From Actinomycetes bacterium (GTDB taxonomy: Bacteria > Actinomycetota > Acidimicrobiia > Acidimicrobiales > RAAP-2), in the NCBI GenBank assembly GCA_021778895.1, contig JAJYBR010000005.1, positions 1 through 64,000 on the forward strand: a stretch of DNA of 64,000 nt, read 5' to 3'. This document shows positions 14,521 through 39,392 of the stretch, piece after piece; the stretch's first letter is position 1, and each line of letters starts with the position of its first letter. Position numbers and translations under genes: made by a program. The notes beneath the pieces were generated by a model, which had not been told where the DNA came from, did no database searches, and worked only from the letters and a program-made list of their open reading frames with translations.

Positions 14521-14647
14521 TCCCCCCGAGGTCCCGACGTCGCCCAAGCCTCCCGACGACTTCGGCGCGTCCCCGACGTCCGCAGATCGCGCTGCTACTG
14601 TGGCTGGTTGCGCCCGGGGTGTGCCGGCTGCGCAAAGGTGGGCGAGC

Positions 14648-18281: not shown

Positions 18282-19811
18282 CTAGATCGAGACGATGCTC
18301 GGTGTCGTCGCCTCCGGGAAGCGGAAGCCGTCCATGAGAACGTCACGCGCCACGGCCACGACGTCGGTGTCAAAGAGGGTACCGGCATTCGCCTCGACGA
18401 ACGCCAGGGCCTCCTCCTTGCCCACGACCGGCCGGTAGGGGCGGTGGCTCGACATGGCCTCGATCACGTCGGCGACGGCCACGATCCGCGCCGGCAGCCC
18501 GATCTCGCTGGCGGCGAGTCCTCCCGGATAGCCCGAGCCGTCGAGCCGCTCGTGGTGCTGGAGGGCGACCTCGGGGATCGGCCAGGGCAGTGAGGCCTGG
18601 GCCAGGATCTCGTGTCCCACCGACGAGTGCCGCCGCACCATGCGCATCTCGAGGTCGCTGAGACGACCCGGCTTGATGAGGATCTCGGAGGCCAGAGCGA
18701 TCTTGCCGACGTCGTGGACGTCTCCGGCCTGCCCGATGAGCCGCACCAGGTCGGCGTCGATGTCGAGGCGCGTGCCCAGGGCCGTCGACAGCGCTCCCAC
18801 CCGCACCTGGTGTCCCGCGGTGTAGGGATCGCGCGCCTCGGTCACCTGGGACAGCGCGGCCAGGGTCCCCTCGAGGGCCGTGGACAGCCGTCGCACCGAC
18901 TCGCCGTGGGCGATCACCCGCTCGGCCTCGCGCACGATCCGCTCGAGACCGGCCACCGTGAGCTCGTCGAAAGCGTTGGGATGGCGGTCGTAGACGGCGA
19001 GCACCGCACGGCGCCCGCCCGGCCGGAAGGGCAGGACCACGGCCGAGCGCAGGTCGTAGCGCGCCAACTGGTCGCGCCACTGGTGCACCATGGGCGACAG
19101 GGCCATGTCGTTCACGACGACCGGGTGGCCGCCCCGCAGCGCGATGCCCGAGGGTCCCAGGCCGTTGGACCGGGTCGTCGACCACGACACCAGGTCGGGG
19201 GTGATGAACCCGGTGACGCCGACGGCCTCGACGACGTCGACCCGACGCTCGGGTCCCTCGCTGGCCACGCCGACCCACGCCAGGGCGAAGGGTCCCGCGT
19301 CGACGAGCGTGTGGCACAGGTGCTGGAAGGTCTCGGCCTCACCCGTCGGGTGAGCCGGACGCTCGGCCACCGCGAGCAGGAGGTCGACCAGCTGGCTGCG
19401 CCGCACGCGCTCCCCGGCGTCCAGGTACGCCAGCAGCACCGCCGTGCACTCGTCGCCCTCGACGATCGGGTAGGCGTTCACGGTGTACCACCGCCGCTCG
19501 CCGGTCGGCGTGAGCAGTCCCTGGACCTCGCCGTAGACCGGGTCCTGGGTCTGCACCGCGACGGCGAAGGGGAGCTCGTCACGCAAGAAGGGCGACCCGT
19601 CCTGGTGGACCGGGTCCCAGGTGAGCCGCGTGGCGTCGTCGCTCATCAGGTCCTCGCGCGAGCACCCGAAGACCCGCTCGGAGCGGTCGTTGACGTCCAG
19701 GACGTGTCCGGACGCGTCGCGCAGCATGAACGCTGTCGCGGTCGCCTCCAAGAACCCGCTCGCCCCGAGCGCGTCCGCGAGCGTCATGGGTACTGACCGG
19801 TCCACGCCCAC
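18282..19811 (-). CDS. PAS/GAF-HD-GYP cyclic-di-GMP phosphodiesterase
   Basis: VHDVGKIALASEIL, LQHHERLDGSGYPGGL, ARIVAVADVIEAMSSHRPYRP. Confidence 0.88.
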   Translation of the reverse strand: MGVDRSVPMTLADALGASGFLEATATAFMLRDASGHVLDVNDRSERVFGCSREDLMSDDATRLTWDPVHQDGSPFLRDELPFAVAVQTQDPVYGEVQGLLTPTGERRWYTVNAYPIVEGDECTAVLLAYLDAGERVRRSQLVDLLLAVAERPAHPTGEAETFQHLCHTLVDAGPFALAWVGVASEGPERRVDVVEAVGVTGFITPDLVSWSTTRSNGLGPSGIALRGGHPVVVNDMALSPMVHQWRDQLARYDLRSAVVLPFRPGGRRAVLAVYDRHPNAFDELTVAGLERIVREAERVIAHGESVRRLSTALEGTLAALSQVTEARDPYTAGHQVRVGALSTALGTRLDIDADLVRLIGQAGDVHDVGKIALASEILIKPGRLSDLEMRMVRRHSSVGHEILAQASLPWPIPEVALQHHERLDGSGYPGGLAASEIGLPARIVAVADVIEAMSSHRPYRPVVGKEEALAFVEANAGTLFDTDVVAVARDVLMDGFRFPEATTPSIVSI

Positions 19812-21392: not shown

Positions 21393-21983
21393 CTACCCGT
21401 GGCGAAAGGTCATCGGGTACCGGTTGAGCGCATCGAGGGCGGCTCGGGCGGCCGCGACGACGTCGTCACCCGCGAGGGCCACGCCGAAGCGCTCCTGGCC
21501 GTCGGCCGTCGAGCACATGGTGACCAGGACGGGCCACGTGCGCAGGGCCGGGACCGTCGTGGCACCGGCCAGGCGGAAGGGCACGTCGTAGCCAAGGTCG
21601 CGCAGAGCGAGCAGGGTCGCCTCGGCGCCGCCGATCAGGGGCCCACTCGACGAGTGGCCCACACCGACCCGCCCGCGGTGTGACAGCTCCACCTCGCACG
21701 AGCCGGCCCCGACGTCGTAGTCCGCTCGCACCAGGATGACCCGCGCCTCACTGCCCATGACCACCGGTGACGTCTCGGCCGCCTGCTCGACGACGACGTC
21801 GATGTCCGGGTAGTAGAGACCAGCGACCTGGGTGGCCGCCTGGGCGGTCTTGTCGGGATGGGGGCCCACGACAAGCAGGGTGACACGCCCGCCCTCGGTG
21901 ACGTCGTGCTCGATCGCCACGTTGAGCACACCCGGCAGGCTCCGCAGCTCCAGCTCGAAGTCCTCATCGATGCGCGCCGTCAC
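21393..21983 (-). CDS. Conserved-looking hypothetical protein
   Basis: 196 aa ORF; 4-nt ATGA overlap with the upstream GGDEF gene and directly adjacent to the downstream membrane gene. Confidence 0.7.
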   Translation of the reverse strand: MTARIDEDFELELRSLPGVLNVAIEHDVTEGGRVTLLVVGPHPDKTAQAATQVAGLYYPDIDVVVEQAAETSPVVMGSEARVILVRADYDVGAGSCEVELSHRGRVGVGHSSSGPLIGGAEATLLALRDLGYDVPFRLAGATTVPALRTWPVLVTMCSTADGQERFGVALAGDDVVAAARAALDALNRYPMTFRHG

Positions 21984-22789
21984 GATCGCCCCTCCCCCTT
22001 CTTCTCGTAGAGCCGGTGGTCCGCGATGCGGTAGAGCTCCTCGGGATCCGCCGAGTCCTTGGGCGAGTTCGCCCAGCCCGCCGTGAAGTCCAGGTCGTCG
22101 GCGACAGCCTTGACCTGCGCCCGCAGGCGGTCGAGGAAGCCACTGGCCTCGGCCCCCTCGGCGCTGGCCAGGATCACGCCGAACTCGTCTCCCCCGAGGC
22201 GCGCCGCGGTGTCGCCGTTGCGGACGCTGCGCCGTAGGGCGAAGGCGAACTGCCGCAGGAGGTGGTCGCCGTAGGCGTGGCCCGCTCGGTCGTTGAGCGC
22301 CTTGAAGTCGTCGAGGTCGATCATGACCAGCGTGAAGGCCCAGCCGTAGCGCGCACTGCGCGCGGAGGCCACGTCAAGGGCGTGGTCGAAAGTGCGCCGG
22401 TTGTCCACACCCGTCAGAGCGTCGTGGCCGGCGTTGAAGCGTGCCAGGTGCAGGGACAGCGCGAGCTGGGACGCCGTGCGCACCGCGTCGCACTCGTGAT
22501 CCGGGACGACCGCGGGCTCACAGAGCACGCCGGGCGTCTCGGTGAGCTCGGCGACCATGGCGGGCCGCACCGGGCGCCCGCCGAGCCGGAAGCTCTGCGT
22601 GCCGAAGGACTCGTGGCGCAGGACCACGATGGCGTCCGTCAACTCGTAGCGCTTGGCCAGCCGGGCGAGCAGGCTGTAGATGAAGCCCAGGCCGAGCTCG
22701 CCGTCGACCAACTCGGCCAGCATCGTCTCGAAGAGCCATGGCCCTTCGGCCTCGTCGCGGGTCGAGGGAGCCGGACTATGCAGGCTCAC
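21980..22789 (-). CDS. GGDEF diguanylate cyclase with I-site
   Basis: HDALTGVDNRRTFDHAL, RNGDTAARLGGDEFGV; GTG start at 22789 overlaps the upstream TGA (GTGA). Confidence 0.88.
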   Translation of the reverse strand: MSLHSPAPSTRDEAEGPWLFETMLAELVDGELGLGFIYSLLARLAKRYELTDAIVVLRHESFGTQSFRLGGRPVRPAMVAELTETPGVLCEPAVVPDHECDAVRTASQLALSLHLARFNAGHDALTGVDNRRTFDHALDVASARSARYGWAFTLVMIDLDDFKALNDRAGHAYGDHLLRQFAFALRRSVRNGDTAARLGGDEFGVILASAEGAEASGFLDRLRAQVKAVADDLDFTAGWANSPKDSADPEELYRIADHRLYEKKGEGRS

Positions 22790-25074
22790 CACTCGAGCAC
22801 ATCCCGGCGAGCCGACAGGGCCGGCACAGCGATCCCGGAAGCTGCCCCCACGCTGAGCAGCTCCCGGAGATCGCCCGACGCAACGGGCATGGAGATGAGG
22901 AAGCCTTGGCCGCGGTGACATCCCAGCTCGAGCAGGCTCTCGACGATCACCGACGACTCGACGCCCTCGGCGATGATCTCCTTGCCGAGGGCCTTGCCCA
23001 AACGGATGATCGCGTCCACGATCGCCCGGTCGAAGGGGTCACGCGCGATTCCCCGCACGAAGCTCATGTCGAGCTTGAGCAGGTCGACGGGCAGGTTCTT
23101 GAGCTCGGACATCGAGGCGAAGCCCGTCCCGAAGTCGTCGAGCGCGATCTCCAGCCCCAACTCGCGGAATCCCCGCAGGATGCGCGCGGTCTGCTCGGGG
23201 TCGTCGACGACGGCGTACTCGGTCAACTCGATGCAGATGCGTGATCCGGGCACGCGGTAGCGGGCCAGCGAGCTCTCGACGAACGAGACGAGGTCGCCGA
23301 GGCGGAAGTCCGCCGGCGACATGTTGACGCGGACCTTGAAGTCGAGCTTCGGGTACTCGTGCTGCCAGACACTGAGCTGGCGGCACGCCTCGGCGAAGAC
23401 CCAGCGACCCAGGCTCGTGACGAGACCGGTCTCCTCGGCCACGGTGATGAACTCCGAGGCGGCGAGCAGGCCCTTGCTCGGGTGCTGCCAGCGCACGAGC
23501 GACTCCACCGCCAGCAGCCGACCCGTCGTCAGGTCGATCTCCGGCTGGAAGTGCAGGCGCAGGCCGTCGCCGTCAATCGCCTCGCGCAGCTGCAGCTCCA
23601 TCTCGGAGCGCTCGTCAACGCGCTCGCGCAACTCACGGTCAAAGACGACCGCCCGGTTCCGGCCCCGCGACTTGGCGTGGTACATGGCGATGTCGGCACG
23701 GCTGAGGAGCTCGGTGGGGGCCACGACGGGCTGGGCCATCGCGATCCCGATGCTCGCGGTGTGGTTCATCACCTGCCCGGCGATCTCGACGGGCTGGGCG
23801 ATGACCTCCAGCATCCGGTAGGCGCTGGCCATCGCCTCCATCTCGGTCCGTGCGCGGTCGACCAGGAACACGAACTCGTCCCCGCCGAGGCGCGCCACGA
23901 AGTCCCCGGTGCGCACCGAGGTGCGCAGGCGGTCGGCCATCACCACGAGCAGGCGGTCGCCGTTGGCGTGGCCGAGGAAGTCGTTCATCACCTTGAAGCG
24001 GTCCAGGTCGATGACCATCACCGCGGTGTCGCGCCGCGAGGCGATGCGGGCGCGCAGCTCCTCGAGCAGGGCCCGCCGGTTGGCCAGGCCCGTGAGCTCG
24101 TCGTGGTTGGCATTGAAGATGATGCGCTCTTCGGCATCGATCCGCGACTGCATCTGGACCAGCAGCGAGGCCACGGCCTGCAGCGCGTTGATCTCGGCCG
24201 GGATCCAGTTGTGCCGGTTGAAGTGAATGAAGCCCAGCACGCCCCACGTGGTCTCGCCGACCAGCAGCGGGACGGCTGCGCCGGCGGCGGGTGTGGCCCC
24301 CGTCGAGTCGTTGATGTGCTGCTTGTACTCGTCGTCGACGTCGTCCGCCTTGCCCGTCAGGTAGGGACCCTTCAGGTCACGGGTCGCCGCGAAGATGGGA
24401 TCGGCATCGAAGGGGACCTCACCGAGCGGGTCGGGGTCGGGGATGTTCTCGCGAACGGGCCACTCGGCCACCATGATGCTGAGTCCCCGCACCAGGTCGT
24501 TGCGGCGCATCAAGGCGACATCGCTGCCCAGGAACTCGCCGAGCTCGCGGATCGTCCACTGCAGGTCGGCCTGACGCGTCGACGAGGTGGCCGACATGAG
24601 CCGCTCGGCGACCCGCGCGACGAGCTCGTCGAGACGCTGCTGGCGCGTGAGCAGTGTCTCGCGCTGGGCCAACGTCGTGATGTGGCTGAGCAGTCCCGCG
24701 AACGCGCGCACCACGGAGCGTTCGCGCTTCGACCACGTCCGGCCCTGCCGAGCGACGAGCAGCATGCCCACGACGGTCTCGCGCTCGTCGCGAATCACCT
24801 CGACCAGCCCGCCCCACTCGATTCCCTGGACCGTCGCCGAGACGGACGCGACGGCGCGATCCACCTTGAGGGCCGCCTGGGCCTTGGTGGACAGAGCCGT
24901 GAAGGCACCGGCCGCCTCGGGCGTGACGTAGGGCTCCAGCTCGGGCGCCAGACCATCCAATGGCCCGACAACCGCGACGATCTGCGTCCCCGCCACGACG
25001 TGCACCAGCGAGTCGACAATCAGGCGCATCTCGTCGTGCGACTGCGCTGTGTGCGACACAGTGGTTTCGACCAT
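22786..25074 (-). CDS. GAF-GGDEF-EAL protein (both catalytic domains look intact)
   Basis: RTGDFVARLGGDEFVF; LAVESLVRWQHP, IALDDFGTGFASM, IIAEGVESS, GQGFLIS; ATG at 25074 preferred over the TTG at 25104. Confidence 0.88.
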   Translation of the reverse strand: MVETTVSHTAQSHDEMRLIVDSLVHVVAGTQIVAVVGPLDGLAPELEPYVTPEAAGAFTALSTKAQAALKVDRAVASVSATVQGIEWGGLVEVIRDERETVVGMLLVARQGRTWSKRERSVVRAFAGLLSHITTLAQRETLLTRQQRLDELVARVAERLMSATSSTRQADLQWTIRELGEFLGSDVALMRRNDLVRGLSIMVAEWPVRENIPDPDPLGEVPFDADPIFAATRDLKGPYLTGKADDVDDEYKQHINDSTGATPAAGAAVPLLVGETTWGVLGFIHFNRHNWIPAEINALQAVASLLVQMQSRIDAEERIIFNANHDELTGLANRRALLEELRARIASRRDTAVMVIDLDRFKVMNDFLGHANGDRLLVVMADRLRTSVRTGDFVARLGGDEFVFLVDRARTEMEAMASAYRMLEVIAQPVEIAGQVMNHTASIGIAMAQPVVAPTELLSRADIAMYHAKSRGRNRAVVFDRELRERVDERSEMELQLREAIDGDGLRLHFQPEIDLTTGRLLAVESLVRWQHPSKGLLAASEFITVAEETGLVTSLGRWVFAEACRQLSVWQHEYPKLDFKVRVNMSPADFRLGDLVSFVESSLARYRVPGSRICIELTEYAVVDDPEQTARILRGFRELGLEIALDDFGTGFASMSELKNLPVDLLKLDMSFVRGIARDPFDRAIVDAIIRLGKALGKEIIAEGVESSVIVESLLELGCHRGQGFLISMPVASGDLRELLSVGAASGIAVPALSARRDVLEW

Positions 25075-25121
25075 GGGGACAGGCCTTTCGCGGCGGCGAC
25101 TCAACGCCGTTCTGTCACGCC

Positions 25122-25163: not shown

Positions 25164-28046
25164 CTACATTTCGACAACGGAATCAGTGTTGTCCAGCTCT
25201 GTTGTGCGCACCCAGACGTCGTCGAGTCGCCGTCGGACGCTGTGTGCACTGGCGGGTGGTGCGACCGACACGCGCAAGACCATCGCGATGGTCTCGCCCG
25301 GGTCGAGATCGAACAACCCATTGAAGCGCGAGGCCAGATCGAACATCTCGTCGAGGTAGCGCTCACCTCCGAGCTCGCGGCGCTCGAAGTCGTTCGTCGC
25401 GTACAAGAAGACGGGCACCACCGGCTGGACCGCGAGGCCCGCCAACGTCGCGGTCAGCCAGAAGCGCTCGGTCGCCGCGCCCGCGCGCATGTACCACAAC
25501 GGCTCGACACGCGGGATCGTGATCGCCGCCAAGGCCGATGACGTCGTGACCATGAGCTGCGTGCGCAGGCCGAGCATCCGGCCCGCGCGCCACTCGGCCA
25601 GGTGGGCCATGACCTCGGGGCGCTCGAGCAGCCCGAGGGCGGCCACGCTGGTTGGGTCCATCTCGAGGGTGCGCACGTCGAGGCCCTCGTCGAGCGGGTC
25701 GCGCCCGGGCAGGCGGATCTCCCCCAGCATCTGGGCGTGGACGCGCGGGATGAGGAAGCGCAGTCGGTCGCAGCGACCGAGCACGTCGCCCGCCGCGCCC
25801 AACTCGGCGGGCGACAGCAGCAGGCGCAGACCCGCGCCTTCGGTGCTGACGGCACGCTGGAGGGACTCCACGTCGCCGTCGGTCAACGAGACGTCGGGGT
25901 CCCCGGCCTGTCGATTCGTGACGCGACGGGGCACGGCGGGATACAAAGCGGCGAGCTGGGCATCGGCGCCACGGCCCAGGTGGAGCGTGGCCACGTGTGA
26001 GCTGGCAACTCCGGTGGGGAAGAGCTGGACGTCACCAAGGCGCTCAGTGGCAGCAGCAGCCGTGCGCGCGTTCAGCACGGCGGCGCCGAGGGCCACGTAG
26101 CTGCCCCGGTGGGCAACGTCCATCGCGGCCGCGTGGTCCGAGACCAGGAAGAAGCGCACCTCGTCGTCGTCCGCCTCGAAGCGCCACGGCTGGACGTTGC
26201 CCCCCGAGGGAGCACGTCGCGCCGCATCCACGATCAAGGTGACGTCGTCGACGTCGACGGGCACGGGGTCCTCGGGCGGCGGGGCGTCGAGGTCGATGTC
26301 CGAGTCGATCTCGAGATCGACGGGCGCGATCCCGCCGAGGGCCTCGTCGAGGTCGATGCGGATCCGGCCCGAGGGCAGATCAGCCCCCAGGGCGAGGTGA
26401 CGCAGGGCCGTGGCCACCGACGCCGCCCCCAAGGTGACCTCACTGGCCAGCTGGGGCCACCCGGTGATGGTCGTGCCCAGCTCGAAGAACGTCACCGCCC
26501 CGCGCGCCGACACCTCGGCCGTGCCGAGCAGTCGCAGCAGATACGGCCCCTTCTCGAAGAGCGTCAAGCTGGCGAGGCGCTCGGCCGTCATGTCACCCAG
26601 CAGCCCGTGGAAGAGCGGCCGGTCGGGCTCGAGGTCGAAGCGCTCCACGTCGAGCACCCCGCGGTCGCTGGTCTCCATGAGAACCGGGATCCGCCGGGCG
26701 CGAGCCGCCTCGCGCACCAAGTACTTCATGTCGAGGGAGTCGCACTCCTCGATGACGACGTCGAGCCCGTCGAGGAACTGGTCGAGGTTCTCCAGCGTCA
26801 AGCCCTCGCTCAGCACCATCATCGACACGTACGGGTCGATCTCGCCGATGCGGCGAGCCGCGACGACGGCCTTGTTGATCCCGAGGTCCAGCACGCTGAC
26901 GGGCAGCCGGTTCAGGTTCGTCAGGGCCACCGTGTCGAAGTCGGCCAGGCGCAGCTCGCCGGCCAGGCCCTCCATCGCGATGACGTGAGCGACCGAGTGC
27001 CCGGCACTGGCCCCGACGACGCCCACGCGCAGGCCCCGGAGGCGATGCTGCTCCTCGGCGGTGAGCTTGGGCCGATTCCGATCGAGGCGGACCCGGCTGA
27101 ACGCCCGAGGACCGAGCAGGCGCACGACGGCGCGCCGCCAGGGGTAGTAGACCCAGCGCGCCGGCTCGTCGAGCTCCTTGGCCGAGGGAGTGGGCTTGAG
27201 CTGGGCGACCTGCTCTTGCTGCTCGGCCAGGCGGTCGATCGCCTGCAGGGCCGGGTCCTCGCGCAGGATGCGCAGGACCTCGCGGTCACTGCGCGTGGCG
27301 ACGTCGAGAACGAGCGGGCGAAACGACTGGGTCCGCGGGGACGCCGCATCGAGTGACGCCGGGCCGGTCTGGCGGGGACCCCGGGCCAGCTGCTCGGCCT
27401 CGCGCCGCAGGGCTCGGCGGTTCTCGTCGTCGGCCAAGTCGTAGGTGCGCCCGCGCTGCCAGGTGACGGCATAGGTGCGATAGCGCTCGTCGGGGAAGGG
27501 CACCCAGTTTCGACTCAGGACCTCGCCGCCAGCGACCTTGCCAACCGGGATGAGCTGATCGGAGACCGCGGCGATGGTGCGCTCGGCACCGAGCCACGTC
27601 GCGGCGTGGGTCATCATCCGCGAGATCGTCGCGACCATCCGGACCCCGAGCACGGAGGCGCCCTTGGCCCAGCCGCCCTTGGCCTCGATGACGCCCAGGC
27701 GTACCTCCCGGTCGATCAGGTCGCCGATCTCGTCGATCTCGGGCAGGGTGGCCAACTCCTCCATGAGGGCGGCTCCCCACCGGTTCTCGAGGGGACCGTG
27801 GAAGCGTAGGCCGGCGACCGGCTCGCCGTCGGGGGCGAAGCCCACGAAGAACAGGGGGACGCCGCGCCCTTCCTCGAGCTCCCGTCGACGCAGGGTGCTC
27901 TCGAAGCCGTAGCTGCGATACTTGCCCTCGGCGTCGTCGAGGTAGCGACGCCACAGGTCGGGTCGCTCGAGCGGGTGGTGCCCCTCAAAGCGCACCCCCG
28001 AGGCCTCGTCGATGAAGCTCGCTCCGTACCGATAGCGAAGCGCCAC
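25164..28046 (-). CDS. Rv1355c-like three-domain protein: N-acyl/acetyltransferase-like + ThiF/E1-like + nitroreductase-like
   Basis: 960 aa; ThiF-like LRGLRVGVVGASAG...LRLADFDTVALTNLNRL; nitroreductase-like DAARRAPSGGNVQPWRFE; N-terminal PVAGLRFHG...EVRLGVIEAKGGWAKG. Confidence 0.75.
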   Translation of the reverse strand: MALRYRYGASFIDEASGVRFEGHHPLERPDLWRRYLDDAEGKYRSYGFESTLRRRELEEGRGVPLFFVGFAPDGEPVAGLRFHGPLENRWGAALMEELATLPEIDEIGDLIDREVRLGVIEAKGGWAKGASVLGVRMVATISRMMTHAATWLGAERTIAAVSDQLIPVGKVAGGEVLSRNWVPFPDERYRTYAVTWQRGRTYDLADDENRRALRREAEQLARGPRQTGPASLDAASPRTQSFRPLVLDVATRSDREVLRILREDPALQAIDRLAEQQEQVAQLKPTPSAKELDEPARWVYYPWRRAVVRLLGPRAFSRVRLDRNRPKLTAEEQHRLRGLRVGVVGASAGHSVAHVIAMEGLAGELRLADFDTVALTNLNRLPVSVLDLGINKAVVAARRIGEIDPYVSMMVLSEGLTLENLDQFLDGLDVVIEECDSLDMKYLVREAARARRIPVLMETSDRGVLDVERFDLEPDRPLFHGLLGDMTAERLASLTLFEKGPYLLRLLGTAEVSARGAVTFFELGTTITGWPQLASEVTLGAASVATALRHLALGADLPSGRIRIDLDEALGGIAPVDLEIDSDIDLDAPPPEDPVPVDVDDVTLIVDAARRAPSGGNVQPWRFEADDDEVRFFLVSDHAAAMDVAHRGSYVALGAAVLNARTAAAATERLGDVQLFPTGVASSHVATLHLGRGADAQLAALYPAVPRRVTNRQAGDPDVSLTDGDVESLQRAVSTEGAGLRLLLSPAELGAAGDVLGRCDRLRFLIPRVHAQMLGEIRLPGRDPLDEGLDVRTLEMDPTSVAALGLLERPEVMAHLAEWRAGRMLGLRTQLMVTTSSALAAITIPRVEPLWYMRAGAATERFWLTATLAGLAVQPVVPVFLYATNDFERRELGGERYLDEMFDLASRFNGLFDLDPGETIAMVLRVSVAPPASAHSVRRRLDDVWVRTTELDNTDSVVEM

Positions 28047-28215: not shown

Positions 28216-29004
28216 GTGACGGCGGCACTGGTGACCTGGAGCGCGATCGCCGGCCTGGTCGTCGGGTCCTTCCTGAACGTCGTCATCTATCGCGTCCCCC
28301 GCGGACTGTCGGTCGTCGCTCCGCGCTCGGCCTGTCCCACGTGCCACACGCCGATCGCCGCGCGCGACAACATCCCCGTCATCTCCTGGCTGGCCCTGCA
28401 CGCGCGGTGCCGGTCCTGCGGGGCGGCCATCTCGGTTCGGTATCCGCTCGTCGAGGCGGCGACTGCGCTCGCCTTCGCGCTGATCGCGTGGCGCATCGGG
28501 CCGCACCCCCAACTCGCCGCCTACCTCGTGTGCGGTGCCAGCCTCATCGCGCTCGCGCTCATCGACGTGGAGCATCTGCGCCTGCCGACCCGCGTCGTCT
28601 ACGTGTCCACAGCGCTCGTTGTCGCACTGCTTCTCGCGTCCTCGGCCTGGCTGGACGAGTGGCACCGCAGCGTGGTCGCCGTACTGAGCGCCGTGGTCTG
28701 GCTCGCGCTCTTCGGTGCGATCCACACGGTCAGCCCGCGGGCCCTCGGGCTAGGAGATGTGCGCCTGGCACCACTGCTCGGCTTCGCCCTGGGCTGGCTG
28801 AGTATCGGCGCGGTCATCGTTGGCTTCTTCCTGGCGAACTTGGTGGGGTCGGTCGTTGGCATCGCCCTCATTGCCATGCACCGACTCGAGCGACGTCAGC
28901 CCGTCCCCTACGGCGTCTTCCTGGCTGTCGGTGCTGGCATCGCCATCCTCTTCACCGTGCCCATGCTGAGCTATTGGCCAGCGCTGCGCCCCTTGCTCGG
29001 ATAG
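28216..29004 (+). CDS. pilD: Type IV prepilin peptidase / N-methyltransferase (A24)
   Basis: GSFLNVVIYRVPRG, CPTCHTPI...CRSCGAAISVRYPLVE, ALIDVEHLRLP, LGLGDVRLAPLLG. Confidence 0.92.
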   Translation: MTAALVTWSAIAGLVVGSFLNVVIYRVPRGLSVVAPRSACPTCHTPIAARDNIPVISWLALHARCRSCGAAISVRYPLVEAATALAFALIAWRIGPHPQLAAYLVCGASLIALALIDVEHLRLPTRVVYVSTALVVALLLASSAWLDEWHRSVVAVLSAVVWLALFGAIHTVSPRALGLGDVRLAPLLGFALGWLSIGAVIVGFFLANLVGSVVGIALIAMHRLERRQPVPYGVFLAVGAGIAILFTVPMLSYWPALRPLLG

Positions 29005-29716: not shown

Positions 29717-30817
29717 TCAGTCCTTGGGGATCTTGAACCCCAGGAACTCCAGGGAGCGAGTGAGCTCCTTCTGGTGAGCGCTCGTCGCGACGGCACTCTC
29801 GTACGATATCGTCCCGTCCACCACCAGCTTGGCCAGGTCGGACTCCATGACCTGCATGCCCTCTTTGGCGTTCGTGAACATGACGTTGATCAGTTGATTG
29901 GATCGGCCTTCGCGAATCAGATTGCGTACCGAGCTGGTCGCGACCAGAACCTCGAAGGCCGCGACCATGCCGCCATCCTTCCTCGGCACCAGTCGCTGCG
30001 CGATGATCGCCGTCAAAGAGGCGGCCAACTGCACGCGCGTCTGCTCCTGGCGCCACGCCGGGAAGACGTCGATGATGCGGTCGATGGCCTGAGGCGCGTC
30101 GTTGGTGTGCAGCGTTGCGAAGACCAGGTGACCGGTCTCCGCCATGGTGAGCGCCATCTGGATCGAGTCAATGTCACGCATCTCACCAAGAAGCAGGATG
30201 TCGGGGTCCTCGCGCAGCGCCGATCGCAATGCCCGCTCGAAGGATGGGCTATCGAGACCGATCTCGCGCTGGCTGACCGCAGACACCTTGTGGTGGTGCA
30301 CATACTCGACCGGATCCTCGATCGTGAGGATGTGTGTAGCCCGCGTGTCGTTAATTCGATCAATGATCGAAGCCAGGGTCGTCGACTTTCCCGACCCCGT
30401 GGGCCCCGTCACCAGCACGAATCCGCGCGGCTGGATAGCGACCCACTCCGCCACCCAGGGAAGGCCCAACTGCTCAAAGCTCGGGATCTTCGTCGGGATG
30501 ATGCGCAACGACATCGCGGTCTGTCCGCGTTGGGTGAAGATGCTGCCACGGACGCGGGCGAGGTCGCGCCACGAGAACGCAAAGTCCACGTCCATCATCT
30601 CGTCAAATGTCTTTTGCTGCCCCTTCGTCAGGAGCGGGAACGCCAGATCGCTGACTTCGTCAGCCGCGAGGACCGGCGCACCCTCAACAGGAACCAGACG
30701 CCCATTGACGCGGATTCGAGGAGCCGAGCCACCAGCGACCAATAGGTCGGAGCCGCCGTGGTCCCACAAAATCTGGAGCCAGGGATCGATTCTGCTGACG
30801 TCTGCTTTGGATTGCAT
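29717..30817 (-). CDS. pilT: Type IV pilus retraction ATPase PilT
   Basis: TGPTGSGKSTTLASIIDRIN, TIEDPVEYVHHHK, SQREIGLDSPSFERALRSALREDPDILLLGEMRD, NLIREGRSNQL. Confidence 0.95.
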   Translation of the reverse strand: MQSKADVSRIDPWLQILWDHGGSDLLVAGGSAPRIRVNGRLVPVEGAPVLAADEVSDLAFPLLTKGQQKTFDEMMDVDFAFSWRDLARVRGSIFTQRGQTAMSLRIIPTKIPSFEQLGLPWVAEWVAIQPRGFVLVTGPTGSGKSTTLASIIDRINDTRATHILTIEDPVEYVHHHKVSAVSQREIGLDSPSFERALRSALREDPDILLLGEMRDIDSIQMALTMAETGHLVFATLHTNDAPQAIDRIIDVFPAWRQEQTRVQLAASLTAIIAQRLVPRKDGGMVAAFEVLVATSSVRNLIREGRSNQLINVMFTNAKEGMQVMESDLAKLVVDGTISYESAVATSAHQKELTRSLEFLGFKIPKD

Positions 30818-30964: not shown

Positions 30965-31552
30965 TCAGCCGTTGACCGCTGAGCCGCACGCCGACACCGG
31001 ATTCATGGTCGCGTCGTACCAGTTGTTAGTCGAGGGGCCACCGGCGGTGCTTGTTGTTAGGTTGCCATGCGCAACTAGAACGTCGCCGACTGCCGGTGTC
31101 GCGGTGGATGATGTGCTACCCGGCACGAAGACGTTCGGAAAGTCCGTTGCCGTCGTGAACACCGCAACAGTGTAAACACCATTTTGCGACGGCCAGGTCT
31201 GGACGAACGGGCCGCCAAAGACGGTTTGGGAGCCATCAACGATGTATCCCGTTCCGTTCTGTGTCGAAGCGGCCGGCGGAACTGACGTCATATCGGCCTC
31301 CCACGCCAGGCTTGAGAACGTCAGACCTGGGTTCTCCGCCTCGAGTGCTGCGACGCCGGTCCCCACCGTCCGAGCATCAGACTGGCAGGCTGCCGTGTTG
31401 CTCTTGCCCGTCACACCACCTAGAGCAAAGACCACGATGGCGGCCAGAATGCCCAGAATGACGATGACGATCAAGAGCTCGATGAGGGTGAATCCACCAT
31501 CGACTCCATCGTTCGCGCGACGCTCCCGCAATCGCTGGTACGTCTGAATCAT
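30965..31552 (-). CDS. pilA: Type IV major pilin-like protein
   Basis: Class III signal GG^FTLIELLIVIVILGILAAIVVFALGGV. Confidence 0.9.
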   Translation of the reverse strand: MIQTYQRLRERRANDGVDGGFTLIELLIVIVILGILAAIVVFALGGVTGKSNTAACQSDARTVGTGVAALEAENPGLTFSSLAWEADMTSVPPAASTQNGTGYIVDGSQTVFGGPFVQTWPSQNGVYTVAVFTTATDFPNVFVPGSTSSTATPAVGDVLVAHGNLTTSTAGGPSTNNWYDATMNPVSACGSAVNG

Positions 31553-31874
31553 TACAGTCTGCCTTTCTGTAGCCGGGACCGACATCCCGGGTGATTCGCC
31601 ACGCACGAACCCGTCGTGTTTCTACCATGCCGTCGCTAACTACACAAGATTCACAACACAACATTGTCCCAAGTCCTGAGCGCAATGCCAGGCGCGCAAA
31701 GCCGCGGAATGCGCTGGATCCCCATAACCCGAACGTGCATTGACGCTGACGACTATCGCGAAGTCTCGCCTCGCTTCCGTTCCACCAATTTTAGAACCAT
31801 GCCCTCTATCGACGAACTTCGACTCCGATCCGTCGCCTCGAACCTCGTCGATGCCCCCTTCTCTCGAACCTCTT

Positions 31875-32783: not shown

Positions 32784-34343
32784 TCAATTTCCAGTTGTCA
32801 AGGCCACGACGAACGTCAGCGCTACTGACGACGGTGATCCTGGGAGTCCTGCGGGAGGCGGAAAGGTGAGTGTCACCGTGGCCCCGTTCTGCGGTGTTCC
32901 CTTCGTCTGGGAGATCGTCGCCGTCACCGACTCGTTGCCGGTTCCCGACGTGAACGACTGCGACGAGGGCGAGACCGTGAAGTTCGTGCCCGATGGACCC
33001 GACGCCGTCAGGCTGACTGTACCCGCTCCGACGCCGTAGAGGTTGAACGTGCAGGTGTTGGAGGGCATCGTCTTCTTCGATTGGCCGGTGAGCGCACTCG
33101 TCACTCCCGAGGGCGGTACGCACCCAGGGGACATGGAGTCGATATAGAGAGTGTTGGAACCCGAGGAGCCGTCGGGGTTGTACACCGCGACAGTGCCCGG
33201 TCCCGGTGCGGGACCCTGTGAGGTGTCATCGATGCTGACGGCCAGCGCCGTCGGGACGGGACCCTGTTGGCCGAGTGGTGTTGGAGAAGGATCCGCTTGG
33301 GACTGATACTGGCACCCGCTCGGCCACGGTGTCGTGACGCCAGGTGAGGAGACCGGAGTCACCGTCTCATTACTGTCCTGATCGGTGAAGATCACCGTCG
33401 CTCCGGGAAGCGTCACCGTCTGGTTCCCAATCGTCTTGGTCTGCCATGGCGTGTAGCCCCACCCGCAGAGCAGCTCGGCGTAGGACGCCTGCCCCGGGGA
33501 ATACCCCCCCTGCATGATCCAACTGGGCGGCACCACGACTGCGAAGACGCCAAACAACGGGGCAGACGACCCACTGGCCGCTCCACCCGGAACGGTCACC
33601 GGATACCACCCCGTCGGCGTTGTGGCCGGGATCGTGACGTTGACGATGAGCGTGCTGGAGTTCATCATGGTCACTGCGTTGGGTTTGATGCCCGAGTTAC
33701 CGAACGACACCGTCGAGGCCGAGGTGAATCCGGATCCGGTCACTGTCAGAGACTGGCTCGTCGCGCCCTGATTGAGCCACGAAGGACTCACGCCACTCAC
33801 CGAGGCGCCAGATCCGCCGCCGCCGCCCCCGCCCCCGCTGCCGCCGCCACCGGCGTTCACCGAACTCCCGTCAACAACCACCTGGGTAAGTCCGACAGTC
33901 CCGCCAAGGTGGAGAACCTTGATCGACACAAGCTGGGATCCTCGCGATCCCGCGGGACACGATGTCGTCCACTGCGAGCTGGTCGAGTCCCAGTACTCGA
34001 CTGGGTTGTAGGTCACGCCAGCGAGTGTGATCGACGTCACTTCGGCGCTGTAGTCAGGTGGAACCGAGAAGCTTGGAGAGTAGGTCGTTGCGCACGAAGC
34101 GTAGTTCCCATTTTCGATGCTGGCGAAGGCGGAGTCGGCTGCGTCGCGCACGGCCACCGTCGAGGTGGCCAGGGTCCGGTGCACCGCTGACCCGCCGATG
34201 CTCGAGGAGAATGCGGTGACCAAGGCGACCCCGGCAATGCTCACGACGAGCAGCGCGATCAAGATCTCGACGAGGGTGTCGCCCCGGTCCACCGGCATTG
34301 CACCACGCCGCGGTTCCCGGCATCCCCGTTCGGGAACTGTCAC
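32784..34343 (-). CDS. Prepilin-like protein with IPT/TIG-like domain (large minor pilin)
   Basis: RG^DTLVEILIALLVVSIAGVALVTAF; VSPSWLNQGATSQSLTVTGSGFTSASTVSFGNSGI is IPT/TIG-like; GTG start overlaps upstream TGA; an alternative ATG lies at 34298. Confidence 0.75.
   Translation of the reverse strand: MTVPERGCREPRRGAMPVDRGDTLVEILIALLVVSIAGVALVTAFSSSIGGSAVHRTLATSTVAVRDAADSAFASIENGNYASCATTYSPSFSVPPDYSAEVTSITLAGVTYNPVEYWDSTSSQWTTSCPAGSRGSQLVSIKVLHLGGTVGLTQVVVDGSSVNAGGGGSGGGGGGGGSGASVSGVSPSWLNQGATSQSLTVTGSGFTSASTVSFGNSGIKPNAVTMMNSSTLIVNVTIPATTPTGWYPVTVPGGAASGSSAPLFGVFAVVVPPSWIMQGGYSPGQASYAELLCGWGYTPWQTKTIGNQTVTLPGATVIFTDQDSNETVTPVSSPGVTTPWPSGCQYQSQADPSPTPLGQQGPVPTALAVSIDDTSQGPAPGPGTVAVYNPDGSSGSNTLYIDSMSPGCVPPSGVTSALTGQSKKTMPSNTCTFNLYGVGAGTVSLTASGPSGTNFTVSPSSQSFTSGTGNESVTATISQTKGTPQNGATVTLTFPPPAGLPGSPSSVALTFVVALTTGN
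33811..33860 (-). repeat. Gly/Ser-rich linker-coding low-complexity tract
   Basis: Encodes AGGGGSGGGGGGGGSG between the pilin stalk and the IPT-like domain. Confidence 0.85.
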
Positions 34344-35956
34344 GGCGCCACCGAGATAGTGGTGTTCTGCGACAACGTGGCGGCGCCCGCCACGATGAAG
34401 GACGTGCACACGGTCCCGTTGTTCTGCGTCGTCACGGTTCCCCAGGGCACGTAGATTCCCCCGAAGTCAGCACCGGCACACGAGCCATTGCTTCCGTAGT
34501 TCGAGTTGTTCCCCAGAGTGACCGTGGGCGATGGATAGCTGCTATCCGGTGCGCCACCAGCCGCCCAGATCGTGATGCCGCCGTAGTCCGCGTTGGGTGT
34601 GAGATCCACGTAGGAGTTGTTCCCGATGGTCATCGAACCCGTTGGCGCATACAGCAGCGCCCCGTTGCCAATGATGGTCGGGTGTCCGCCGCTGACGTCG
34701 AAGGCGTCACTCCCGTCCAGCCAGTAGGTGCCAGGTCCGAAGGACACCACCACTGGTTGGCCCTTCGAGTTGCTCGATGGCAGGAGAAAGCTCGAAAATC
34801 CGTACGCTCCACCGACGAAGCTGATCGAGTTCGTCTGCGTTGAGAGCGCTGCCCAAGGCATGGTGTCGTAATACCCGGGAAGGCAGACGTAGTCGTAGCC
34901 GTTCTGTGTGACCGACGAAGTACAAACACCCGTATTGGTGGGTTTCGCTGGCGGATTCAGCTTTAGGAACGGGTCAAGGAACTGCGAGGGGGGCATCACG
35001 TAGACCGGAGCGGACGTCCCCGACACCGTGGTCGGACTCTCCACCAGTACCGAGCCGACGTTGATCGTCGCGTTCTGCTGAGTCGAGACCAGAGATGAGC
35101 CCGAAGTGCTGCACGTTCCCGCCACTGCGAGTGCACCATTCCCGATCCCACCGTTGACGTTGATCGTGAGCGAACCGCCGTTGTCAACGGTCAGCGTGTT
35201 GCAGCCCTGATTAGGCAATCCGAAAAGCGAGACCGGCGCCCGTACGATCGATGCCGTCTTTCCCAGATCCACGAGCGCTGCGCTCCGCGGCGCAGCGATC
35301 AGCCAATACGACGGTGTCGTGCCGAAAGCCACGTAGAGCGGCAATCGAACGACCGCGACGTCCGTCGCGGACAGCCAGGTCGACGCGTCGCAGGGCACCG
35401 AGCCCACGCAGCTGACCAAGGCCGTCGGTTGGCTCGCATTGACGTCGTAAGCCACCACGCTCGTCGAAGTCGGCGTCGCCGAGAAGACGCACGCCACGCG
35501 CTCGAGTGAGTATCCCGTGGTCCCGAGGGCATTGTTGCCCGGTCCGGTGGGTCCGTTATTCATCGGCACGACCATGTACGACACCGCGGCATTGCCCGAT
35601 GCCCACTGGAGCCCAAGAACCTGCCTCTCACCCGAGGTCTGCGGATCGCAAGCGATCGACGACGTGCTCGCCGTGATGGAACTCGCACTCTGAACATCCC
35701 GCGTGAACACCGACAACACCGTCTGCATGCTCGCCGAGCCCGTCACGCGCCCAGTCACGCTGGACTGGAGCGACAGAACGGACACCAACCCCACAGAGAT
35801 CGCGCCCATCACCACCGGGAGGATCACGAAAGCGATCAGCAACTCGACCAGTGTGAAGCCCGACTGGTCGTACACGGGGGTCTTCGCCACGCCACGGGAC
35901 CCCCAGCGGTGACGTGGGGAACTGGTACTTTGACCGACTCCGCTGCGCATGCACAC
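34340..35956 (-). CDS. Prepilin-like protein (PilW-type N-terminus) with repetitive, possibly beta-helical C-terminal domain
   Basis: SG^FTLVELLIAFVILPVVMGAISVGL; C-terminal strand/turn-rich repeats (TIIGNGALLYAPTGSMTIGNNSYVDLTPNADYGGITIW...). Confidence 0.75.
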   Translation of the reverse strand: MCMRSGVGQSTSSPRHRWGSRGVAKTPVYDQSGFTLVELLIAFVILPVVMGAISVGLVSVLSLQSSVTGRVTGSASMQTVLSVFTRDVQSASSITASTSSIACDPQTSGERQVLGLQWASGNAAVSYMVVPMNNGPTGPGNNALGTTGYSLERVACVFSATPTSTSVVAYDVNASQPTALVSCVGSVPCDASTWLSATDVAVVRLPLYVAFGTTPSYWLIAAPRSAALVDLGKTASIVRAPVSLFGLPNQGCNTLTVDNGGSLTINVNGGIGNGALAVAGTCSTSGSSLVSTQQNATINVGSVLVESPTTVSGTSAPVYVMPPSQFLDPFLKLNPPAKPTNTGVCTSSVTQNGYDYVCLPGYYDTMPWAALSTQTNSISFVGGAYGFSSFLLPSSNSKGQPVVVSFGPGTYWLDGSDAFDVSGGHPTIIGNGALLYAPTGSMTIGNNSYVDLTPNADYGGITIWAAGGAPDSSYPSPTVTLGNNSNYGSNGSCAGADFGGIYVPWGTVTTQNNGTVCTSFIVAGAATLSQNTTISVAP

Positions 35957-35982: not shown

Positions 35983-37386
35983 TCAGCGGACCTGTACCTG
36001 GTTGTAGATACCGTACATAGCCGATATCAACGCAATCGCAACAAACCCAACGACAACGCCCATGGCGATGATGATGGCGGGCTCGAAGAGCGACGTCGCG
36101 TGGTCCACCTTGGTCTCCAGCTCGCGCCCGTAGTACGCAGCGGCGACTTCAAGCTGCTGGTCGAGTGTTCCGGTCTCCTCGCCCACGCGCAACATCTGGC
36201 GTGCCGCACCGGGAAAGAGCCCCGTGCGCGCGAGCGGTGTCGCCAGTCCCTGCCCCTCCATCATCTCGTCGCGGATGTGCTCGATGGCAGTCCGGTACAC
36301 GCTGTTGTTGGCTGACTCGGCCATGACCGCCATCGAGCGGGGCATGTCGACGCCGGCGTGGAGCATCGAGGCCAGGATCCGCATGGTGCGCTCCAGGATC
36401 GAGGTCTGGGTAATGTCGCCAATGACCGGGATCCGCAGGATCCACGAGTCGAGAATCGCGCGGCCATTGGACGTGCGGCGCATGGTGACGAAGGAGGCGA
36501 CGAGCAGGATGATCGCGCCCAGGACCAGGAACCACCACCGCGTCAGGTAGCCCGAGAAGTTGAGCAGCATCCGCGTCACCAGAGGCAGCTTCGCGTTCAG
36601 CGACTTGAAGAAGACGACGAAACGCGGCAGGACGAAGACCGTCAGCACGATCACCACGAACACCGAGAGGACCGCGACCACCGCGGGATAGATGAGAGCG
36701 GATGTGACCTTCGCCCGGGCCTTCAGGTCCCGGTCCATGTAGTCAGCCAGCTGATTAAGAACCTGATCCAGGTTCCCGGTGAGTTCGGCGGACTCCAGGA
36801 TCCCGACGTAGTAGTTGGGGAAGGCCTCGGGATGGAGGGCCGCTGCTGCGGCAAAGGTGTCGCCATTACGCAGGGAGTCGATCATGTCGGCGATGACGAT
36901 GCGCATCATCTTGCCGGTCGTCTCTTCCAATATCACCTCGAGTGACTCCATGATCGGGACACCGGCACGGATGAAGACCGAGAGCTGGCGCGAGAAGTTC
37001 ATCACCTCCTTGCGCGGAACCATCTTCTTCGTGATCTCGAACCGGAGGATGCTGCGCTTCTCGGTGACCTCGACGGGCTGCAGCCCCCGGCGCAGCAGGG
37101 CCATGTGGGCCGCGCCAGCCGAGATCGCCTTCTCGACTCCCTTGACAGACTGCCCCTGGTCGTCGAAGGCGACGAAGTTGAACTGCTTGACCGGCAAGTC
37201 CCGCTGCGTCTTCTGCTTGCCCCGGCCACGCCGAGGTTTGCGATCGATGTGCATGCGCCGGGCGACTGCGTGCTCGCGCTTGCGGGAGCGTGTGTCCTCG
37301 CGTTGCTTCTTCGTCGCGGCTTTGTGCTCCTCGCGCGAAGGCTTCTCGGCGCTGGTGCCGCCGGGTTCGTCGTCGTTTGTGCTCAT
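35983..37386 (-). CDS. pilC: Type IV pilus inner-membrane platform protein PilC
   Basis: FSRQLSVFIRAGVPIMESLEVI, NYYVGILESAELTGNLDQVLNQLADYMDRD, GLFPGAARQMLRVGEETGTLDQQLEVAAAYYGRELE; ATGA overlap with pilB. Confidence 0.93.
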   Translation of the reverse strand: MSTNDDEPGGTSAEKPSREEHKAATKKQREDTRSRKREHAVARRMHIDRKPRRGRGKQKTQRDLPVKQFNFVAFDDQGQSVKGVEKAISAGAAHMALLRRGLQPVEVTEKRSILRFEITKKMVPRKEVMNFSRQLSVFIRAGVPIMESLEVILEETTGKMMRIVIADMIDSLRNGDTFAAAAALHPEAFPNYYVGILESAELTGNLDQVLNQLADYMDRDLKARAKVTSALIYPAVVAVLSVFVVIVLTVFVLPRFVVFFKSLNAKLPLVTRMLLNFSGYLTRWWFLVLGAIILLVASFVTMRRTSNGRAILDSWILRIPVIGDITQTSILERTMRILASMLHAGVDMPRSMAVMAESANNSVYRTAIEHIRDEMMEGQGLATPLARTGLFPGAARQMLRVGEETGTLDQQLEVAAAYYGRELETKVDHATSLFEPAIIIAMGVVVGFVAIALISAMYGIYNQVQVR

Positions 37387-39245
37387 AGCGTGTACACGCT
37401 CCGAATCACCTCGTTGATCGTCGTGACGTCCTGGGCCACCAGGCTCAGGGCCTCCTGACGCAGGGTGCGCATCCCCTGCTTGACGGCGAGCGTCCGCAGC
37501 TCCTCCTGGGTCGCCCAGCCGACGATCAGCCGCCTTATCTCGGGCGTCATGGTGAGCAGCTCGTAGATGCCGATGCGATCCAGGTAGCCCGTGTGGCTGC
37601 AGTAGTTGCACCCGGCACCGTGGTAGAAGGTCCCCTTGGGCTCGCCACCGCTCTCCTCGTAGAAGAGGAGCTCCTCGTCGGTCGGCGTGTACTGCGTCTT
37701 GCACGAGGTGCAGATCCGGCGCAGCAGCCGCTGGCCGACGACGGCCAGCACCGACGAGGCGACGAGGAACGACTCGATGCCCATGTCGAGCAGACGGTGC
37801 AGGGCGGCGACCGAGTCGGTCGCGTGCATCGACGAGATGACGAAGTGCCCGGTCAGGGCGGACTGGACGGCCACGCGCGTCGTCTCGACGTCGCGCACCT
37901 CGCCGACCAGGATGACGTCGGGGTCCTGGCGCAGGATCGACTTCAAGCCGGTGGCGAACGTCAATCCCGCGGTGTCGTTGGTCTGGATCTGGTTGATCAT
38001 GGGGAACACGTACTCGACGGGGTCCTCGATGGTCATCACGTTCATCGCCTCGTTGCCGATCTCGGTCACCGTGGCGTACAGGGTGGTGGTCTTGCCGCTC
38101 CCGGTCGGCCCGGCGCACAGCACCATCCCGAACGGTGCGCGCACCAGCTTCGAGTAGGCGTAGTGGGTGTCGGTCGGCATCCCGAGGTCGGCGAGGCGCA
38201 GCAGGGAGCGCGTCTTGTCCAAGATGCGCATCACGCACTTCTCGCCCATGATCGTGGCCACGGTCGAGACCCGGACGTCGACCTCTTTGCCGTCGATGGT
38301 CACTGTTAGCTGCCCGTCTTGGGGACGGCGCCGCTCGACGATGTTCATCTCCGCCATGATCTTGATGCGGCTGACCAGCCCCGGTCCCATGGAGGCCGGC
38401 AGTTCAAGGATCTGGCTGAGCGCCCCGTCGATGCGGAAACGCACGCGCACCACGTCGTCGGACGGCTCGATGTGAACGTCCGAGGCGCGGTCGCGCATGG
38501 CCTGGGTGAGGATGCGGTCGACCACCTGGACGATCGGCGCATCGTCGGCGACGATCTCGGGCACGGCGACGTCGGGTCCCCGCCGCCGCGACTCCTCGAC
38601 CACCTTGAAGGCCTGGACCAGGGACCCCACGTCGCTGATGGCTCGGTAGTTGCTGTCGAGGGCCCAGCGCACGTCAGAGAGCGAGGCGACCTCCAGCCGC
38701 ACCGGCCGCCCGATGCGGCTGATCAGCTGCTCGGCGAGCTCGGGGCGCGGCTCGGCGCACGCCACGACGACCGTCCCCGCGTCGTCGCGCACCGGCACGA
38801 CCAGGTGCGCCCGAGCGAACTCCTCGTCGAGCATCTTGAGCACCGACACGTCGACGTCGACCTGGTGGAGGTTGACGACGGGCAGCGACAGCAGGATCGA
38901 CAGCGCGGTCGTCAGGCTGCGCTCGTCGATCGCGCCCGCGGCCACCAGGATCTCACCCAGGCGCCGGCCGTTGCGCTTCTGCTCGTGGAGGGCCCGCGCC
39001 AGCTGCTCGGTCGTGATGGCCCCGGACTTGACCAGGGTGTCGCCGAGACGACCGGGCTTAGGTGCGTTCTCCGCGCTGAAGCCCCCGAACTCGAACTCGG
39101 CGAATTCGTCCTCGGGCCGATCGACGACGTCGACGGCGGTGGCGCCGGACGCGCGGGCAGGCGCCTCATGCCCCTTGTGGGACCCGTCCTTCTTGTGGTC
39201 CTTCCGGGGAGCGTCCTTGTCTCGCCGCTTAAACGCCACCGACAC
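37383..39245 (-). CDS. pilB: Type IV pilus assembly ATPase PilB with N-terminal MshEN-type domain
   Basis: GPTGSGKTTTLYATV, TIEDPVEYVFPMINQIQTN, LRQDPDVILVGEVRD, CxxC...CxxC zinc motif; N-terminal tandem RLGxxLVxxGAI motifs. Confidence 0.93.
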   Translation of the reverse strand: MSVAFKRRDKDAPRKDHKKDGSHKGHEAPARASGATAVDVVDRPEDEFAEFEFGGFSAENAPKPGRLGDTLVKSGAITTEQLARALHEQKRNGRRLGEILVAAGAIDERSLTTALSILLSLPVVNLHQVDVDVSVLKMLDEEFARAHLVVPVRDDAGTVVVACAEPRPELAEQLISRIGRPVRLEVASLSDVRWALDSNYRAISDVGSLVQAFKVVEESRRRGPDVAVPEIVADDAPIVQVVDRILTQAMRDRASDVHIEPSDDVVRVRFRIDGALSQILELPASMGPGLVSRIKIMAEMNIVERRRPQDGQLTVTIDGKEVDVRVSTVATIMGEKCVMRILDKTRSLLRLADLGMPTDTHYAYSKLVRAPFGMVLCAGPTGSGKTTTLYATVTEIGNEAMNVMTIEDPVEYVFPMINQIQTNDTAGLTFATGLKSILRQDPDVILVGEVRDVETTRVAVQSALTGHFVISSMHATDSVAALHRLLDMGIESFLVASSVLAVVGQRLLRRICTSCKTQYTPTDEELLFYEESGGEPKGTFYHGAGCNYCSHTGYLDRIGIYELLTMTPEIRRLIVGWATQEELRTLAVKQGMRTLRQEALSLVAQDVTTINEVIRSVYTL

Positions 39246-39392
39246 TCCGTTCTGCGCGGTAGGTAGGAATCTCTCACACGGCGACTGCTGACGCAACATC
39301 GCCACGCATCGACGTCGCGCCCCTACTCGGACCAAGCGTAGTGAGCGCGCAACGCGACGTGCGGCATGTTTGTTCGTGCGTTGTTTTGCCGT

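Follow-up and report, generated by a model that had tools for sequence, protein, structure and literature searches.

The window, the whole 64,000-nucleotide stretch analysed here, encodes on its minus strand a PilB protein that is likely to be a type IV pilus extension ATPase whose MshEN domain binds c-di-GMP and so promotes pilus extension, with a nearby cluster of c-di-GMP enzymes setting the level. That this PilB is a direct c-di-GMP receptor had been proposed in an earlier, sequence-only reading of the region, and the proposal is well supported by homology, by the predicted fold and by decay of the motif in relatives devoid of GGDEF proteins. The protein is unexceptional for a known family of receptors, in which its membership is well supported, and it is a new example of a known switch in an actinobacterium of acid habitats. 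The gene and its domains are laid out as follows.

37383..39335, minus strand: pilB, type IV pilus extension ATPase with an N-terminal MshEN domain (650-residue longest ORF)
38979..39050, minus strand: MshEN motif I, RLGDTLVKSGAITTEQLARALHEQ, with one departure, Ala at position 11
38964..38978, minus strand: five-residue spacer KRNGR
38892..38963, minus strand: MshEN motif II, RLGEILVAAGAIDERSLTTALSIL, with two departures, Ala at position 11 and Leu replacing Gln at position 24
38643..38891, minus strand: MshEN C-terminal subdomain, the portion covered by Pfam PF05157
37401..38549, minus strand: T2SSE ATPase domain of PilB (Pfam T2SSE, 406 bits)

The ORF starts at TTG 39335, an uncertain start codon, and the alternatives GTG 39245 or 39239 lie nearer the onset of homology. 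The catalytic set is complete, with Walker A (GPTGSGKT), Asp box (TIEDPVE), Walker B, His box and two CxxC motifs. The NCBIfam equivalog for type IV-A PilB, TIGR02538, matches with 526.8 bits, below its cut-off of 675.65, and TIGR02533 (GspE) with 528 bits, likewise below its cut-off of 630. We use the name PilB on the basis of the gene context (pilC, pilT, pilD and pilins) and of the best solved relatives, and not as that of a certified IV-A equivalog.

The tandem motif at 38892-39050 is real, comprises PilB residues 96-148 and has the exact 24-5-24 spacing in its 53 residues. The minus strand reproduces exactly the peptide that had been quoted for this interval; the plus strand was discarded, its peptide being unrelated. 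A search with the MshEN HMM, which had been suggested as a check, gave 60 bits for Pfam MshEN (PF05157; cut-off 23.1), and the NCBIfam model of precisely the 53-residue c-di-GMP motif (NF053729, 'c-di-GMP_motif'; cut-off 38) gave 65.7 bits with the whole ORF and 68.6 bits with the N-domain alone. The N-domain also matches MshE (5htl) by phmmer with an E-value of 3.9e-16, and with such sequence scores a motif match by chance is no serious option. Both motifs begin with RLG, and the leucines of the platforms (L2, L17 and L21) are present in each. Motif I has every ligand-contact residue and motif II has the Arg, the Leu, the Gly and two further Leu, its Gln being replaced by Leu; 11 of the 12 c-di-GMP contact positions are retained. 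The description of motif I as a full match, and of motif II as departing only at the final Gln, needs correction, as both carry Ala at position 11, where the published consensus is L/V/I. Position 11 belongs to the core of the helix bundle and makes no ligand contact (PMC5013675).

An AlphaFold model of the N-domain, built from 48 homologues (pLDDT 85, pTM 0.74), predicts four helices and, after them, an alpha/beta subdomain. The best PDB match by E-value in Foldseek is MshE with c-di-GMP (5htl_B; E 3.8e-12, TM 0.73/0.76), and the next are c-di-GMP complexes of the GSPII-B domain of Thermus PilF, including that of the Q218E mutant (9glg). The highest TM-score belongs to a non-binder, PilF GSPII-A (TMq 0.81). 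Since GSPII-A also matches, we did not retain the fold alone as proof of binding: the structure prediction confirms an MshEN domain and leaves the matter of binding to other evidence.

Gln closes motif I, and Leu closes motif II. Position 24 of motif II is occupied in the 64 sequences of the genus by Phe (42), Leu (7), Tyr (5), Met (5), Val (3) or Ser (2) and never by Gln, while position 24 of motif I is Gln in 62 of the 64; beyond the genus, Gln is common at the end of motif II. As motif II never ends in Gln across the genus, the window PilB is typical of its clade and is no decaying copy. The missing second Gln is a real difference from the consensus and the sole unusual feature of the protein, and the loss is clade-wide.

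What this loss may cost can be judged from characterised proteins. In MshE, each Gln is hydrogen-bonded twice to the ribose-phosphate backbone (PMC5013675). In GSPII-B of Thermus PilF, the Q218E substitution, which affects the second Gln alone, lowers affinity 77-fold and leaves binding at 460 nM, like that of MshE, while mutation of both Gln abolishes binding (PMC11731258); a structure of Q218E with its ligand bound is in the PDB (9glg). The second Gln is thus not essential for binding, and its absence counts against the strict consensus and not against membership of the family. The wild-type GSPII-B has an exceptional affinity of 6 nM, and for a domain with weaker initial binding an equal loss could therefore be costlier. 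With Leu in place of the Gln expected to hold the second phosphate and ribose, the window PilB probably binds less tightly than it would with both Gln, yet sufficiently. Our literature search found no tested MshEN binder naturally without the second Gln. We suggest only tentatively that the genus has an MshEN variant of its own, in which the second Gln has given way to a bulky hydrophobic residue, Phe in the majority of species and Leu here, and binding is kept in a pocket that is asymmetric and differs in affinity or in the pose of the ligand, PilB being the main protein receptor of c-di-GMP there. Whether an MshEN pocket can work with one Gln is a question of testable biochemistry.

Relatives in the genus allow conservation to be examined; those found by name are metagenome-assembled genomes labelled Actinomycetes or Acidimicrobiales. 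The 12 contact positions are less variable than the remaining N-domain (mean entropy 0.43 versus 1.72 bits, 190 columns, p 4.5e-5), and G3, L17 and Q24 of motif I are invariant in this set, from which the degenerate sequences G020, G055, G076 and G085 had been left out beforehand. As degenerate sequences were left out and some of the contact positions serve the structure as well, this conservation points to constraint and falls short, by itself, of proving ligand binding.

A second line of evidence comes from the co-occurrence of MshEN and GGDEF domains. Among 91 genomes of the genus, some of them incomplete, 59 have both, 3 have MshEN only, 13 GGDEF only and 16 neither (Fisher p 1.5e-7); in genomes at least 90% complete the same categories hold 37, 2, 4 and 11 (p 9e-7). 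The few changes of state on the PilB tree mean that these p-values overstate independence. On the tree of the PilB ATPase domain there are about 2 changes of GGDEF state and about 3 of motif state, corresponding to about two independent losses, and a tree-based test of independent pairs had only 1-2 usable pairs, too few to reach significance; the p-values were for this reason dropped as independent evidence. The three MshEN-only genomes (G055, G076 and G085) have broken motifs scoring 35.2, 37.8 and 27.9 bits with NF053729, under the cut-off of 38. Five freshwater-type uncultured actinobacteria or Acidimicrobiaceae also have broken motifs (12-26 bits), were classed as degenerate ahead of any count of their GGDEF proteins, and have a GGDEF count of zero in five out of five. 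In these five the pilus locus persists without any GGDEF protein, and the c-di-GMP contacts are gone from the N-domain of PilB. Over the combined set, every one of the 62 PilBs with an intact motif belongs to a GGDEF-bearing genome, and the 15 degenerate motifs include those of all eight GGDEF-less genomes (12-38 bits, all under the cut-off). Motif II is partly decayed in two GGDEF-bearing members of the genus, G037 (two GGDEF) and G067 (one GGDEF), and degenerate motifs occur also in more distant PilBs of GGDEF-rich genomes. Broad counts of GGDEF proteins across phyla were dropped as support on account of such degenerate motifs, and only a one-way rule survives them, that a genome without GGDEF has no canonical motif. 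Close relatives in which motif integrity tracks the presence of GGDEF amount to a natural experiment, and the decay of the motif where GGDEF is absent supports ligand binding.

Divergent MshEN matches (E about 1e-11) were also seen in G020, in a third copy of G035 and in G057. They look like another paralogue, a second type of ATPase, and are unaligned with pilB; the G035 third copy and G057 have no N-domain match and so enter no motif count.

Downstream of pilB follow pilC, prepilin-like genes, pilT, a DUF429 gene, pilD, a gene for a ThiF-nitroreductase protein and the c-di-GMP enzymes.

35983..37386, minus strand: pilC, GspF/T2SSF platform protein, its start codon overlapping the pilB stop
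34340..35956, minus strand: prepilin-like protein with an N-methylation signal
32784..34409, minus strand: large prepilin-like protein with a match to the NCBIfam choice-of-anchor Z repeat
30965..31606, minus strand: pilin-like protein with the N-methylation signal GFTLIELLIVIVILGIL
29717..30817, minus strand: pilT retraction ATPase (TIGR01420, 435 bits; cut-off 319)
28216..29004, plus strand: pilD prepilin peptidase
25164..28046, minus strand: ThiF and nitroreductase protein of 960 residues, between pilD and the GGDEF-EAL gene
22786..25104, minus strand: GAF-GGDEF-EAL protein, GGDEF site and EAL residues (ESLVR, DDFGTG, EGVE) intact
21980..22921, minus strand: GGDEF protein, GGDEF signature intact
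21393..21983, minus strand: 196-residue protein without a Pfam match, adjoining the GGDEF gene
18282..19811, minus strand: PAS-GAF-HD protein (HD_5, HD-GYP type)
16660..18195, minus strand: PAS-GAF-HD protein (HD_5, HD-GYP type)
14291..16780, plus strand: PAS-GGDEF-EAL protein with a degenerate EAL domain (LDGFG for DDFG, QGVE for EGVE; ExLxR kept as EALMR)

The large prepilin-like protein at 32784-34409 is, from its sequence, a possible pilus-tip adhesin. Receptor EAL domains such as that of FimX keep ExLxR and lose the DDFG and EGVE residues. The protein at 14291-16780 is probably an inactive phosphodiesterase and possibly a c-di-GMP receptor, as far as its EAL residues indicate. The order of pilus genes, ThiF-nitroreductase, GGDEF-EAL and GGDEF is kept in five relatives (G026, G030, G041, G066 and G078), the DNA stretch of other relatives often being too short to show the order. 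The ThiF-nitroreductase gene has the same position in several relatives, and the 196-residue protein is syntenic in at least G026, G041 and G078.

The source genome measures 1.8 Mb at 94% completeness. Of its six GGDEF domains, three belong to the cluster and three lie elsewhere; the cluster also contains both HD_5 proteins of the genome, which has one MshEN protein and two T2SSE ATPases, PilB and PilT. No PilZ match was found in it at E<=1, under which control genomes gave matches; a search for the c-di-GMP-I riboswitch gave no match in this genome, nor in the control genomes, and so carries no weight. Our search for published work joining MshEN and Acidimicrobiia found none in a coverage which leaves out most subscription journals. 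Since the pilus motor carries a known c-di-GMP-binding domain, c-di-GMP made by the adjacent enzymes probably controls the pili. From linkage and co-occurrence, PilB as an effector of the nearby cluster is a plausible and reasonable hypothesis. Its earlier designation as the missing effector is plausible in so far as there is one MshEN protein, no PilZ match and a linkage of cluster and pilus locus; the definite article overclaims, in view of the degenerate EAL domain, of the 13 genomes with GGDEF and without MshEN, and of possible receptors of other types.

These same observations bear on a reading in which PilB does bind c-di-GMP while the cluster enzymes act mainly via another receptor, be it the EAL protein at 14291-16780, an RNA or some other regulator. 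The FimX-like residue pattern of that protein, the 13 MshEN-less genomes and the three further GGDEF proteins elsewhere in the genome speak for it; however, several of those 13 genomes are less than 90% complete, the genome yields no PilZ and a single MshEN, and cluster and pilus locus are linked in several species, so that we regard it as rather unlikely. Less probable again is an MshEN fold without c-di-GMP binding and of purely structural role, as in Xanthomonas XpsE (PMC5013675) or PilF GSPII-A (PMC11731258). Both have the fold without binding, GSPII-A gives our top TM-score, and the second Gln is lost here. However, the non-binders have lost many contacts, XpsE having eight listed changes (PMC5013675) and motif II of GSPII-A being just 45% like the consensus (PMC11731258), whereas the window PilB keeps all contacts except one, Q24 of motif I is invariant in the GGDEF-bearing set, it is in genomes without GGDEF that motifs have decayed, and the equivalent PilF mutant still binds. 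A domain reading mainly another dinucleotide such as cGAMP seems extremely improbable: MshEN does bind cGAMP weakly, at 0.33 mM, but MshE binds c-di-GMP hundreds of times tighter (PMC5013675), the c-di-GMP contacts are kept here, and the nearby cyclases bear GGDEF signatures.

In the preferred reading, PilB as a c-di-GMP-binding extension ATPase, c-di-GMP made by GGDEF proteins would bind the N-domain, in which two 24-residue helix pairs would make up two platforms of leucines; one c-di-GMP molecule would bind with a guanine on each platform. By analogy with MshE, Myxococcus xanthus PilB and Thermus PilF, binding would favour pilus extension and surface attachment, and gene order suggests that the cluster, about 13 kb from pilB, sets the c-di-GMP level that PilB reads. 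c-di-GMP has been shown to favour extension in the case of MshE, and there is support for the same in M. xanthus PilB (PMC11656802). Binding-site mutants of PilF have effects of about 40% on twitching and adhesion (PMC11731258), and the ATPase rate of Clostridium perfringens PilB2 does not respond to c-di-GMP (PMC11656802); given such results elsewhere, the size and route of the effect in the window PilB are not predictable. The proposal would connect type IV pili with c-di-GMP in a lineage of actinobacteria that has been little studied and in which other recognisable receptors for this signal are few.

Among known systems, Vibrio cholerae MshE (5htl; Wang et al. 2016, PMC5013675) shares with the window PilB the 24-5-24 arrangement, both RLG starts, the four Leu contacts of LxxxLxxQ and the first Gln; the window PilB differs in the Leu for the second Gln, in the Ala at position 11 of both motifs, and in having Glu and not Asp near a dispensable contact of the C-terminal subdomain (AEP, placed by sequence and not by superposition). 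Thermus thermophilus PilF (8pdk; Neissner et al. 2024, PMC11731258) has in GSPII-B another MshEN-type domain of a pilus extension ATPase, and its Q218E mutant mimics the loss of the second Gln; PilF has three MshEN-type domains with K/L at the motif starts, whereas the window PilB has one domain with R/R. C. perfringens PilB2 (Hendrick et al. 2017, cited in PMC11656802) is likewise a c-di-GMP-binding PilB of a Gram-positive, but of a different phylum and with a motif which that citing text describes as nearly identical to that of MshE. Of the solved chains that include an N-domain, the nearest in overall PilB type is M. xanthus PilB, for which c-di-GMP binding is reported by Dye et al. 2023, as cited in PMC11656802: it shares the single N-terminal MshEN domain and, in the alignment, the Ala at position 11 of motif II, but its motif II ends in Gln and its motif I is without G10 and L21.
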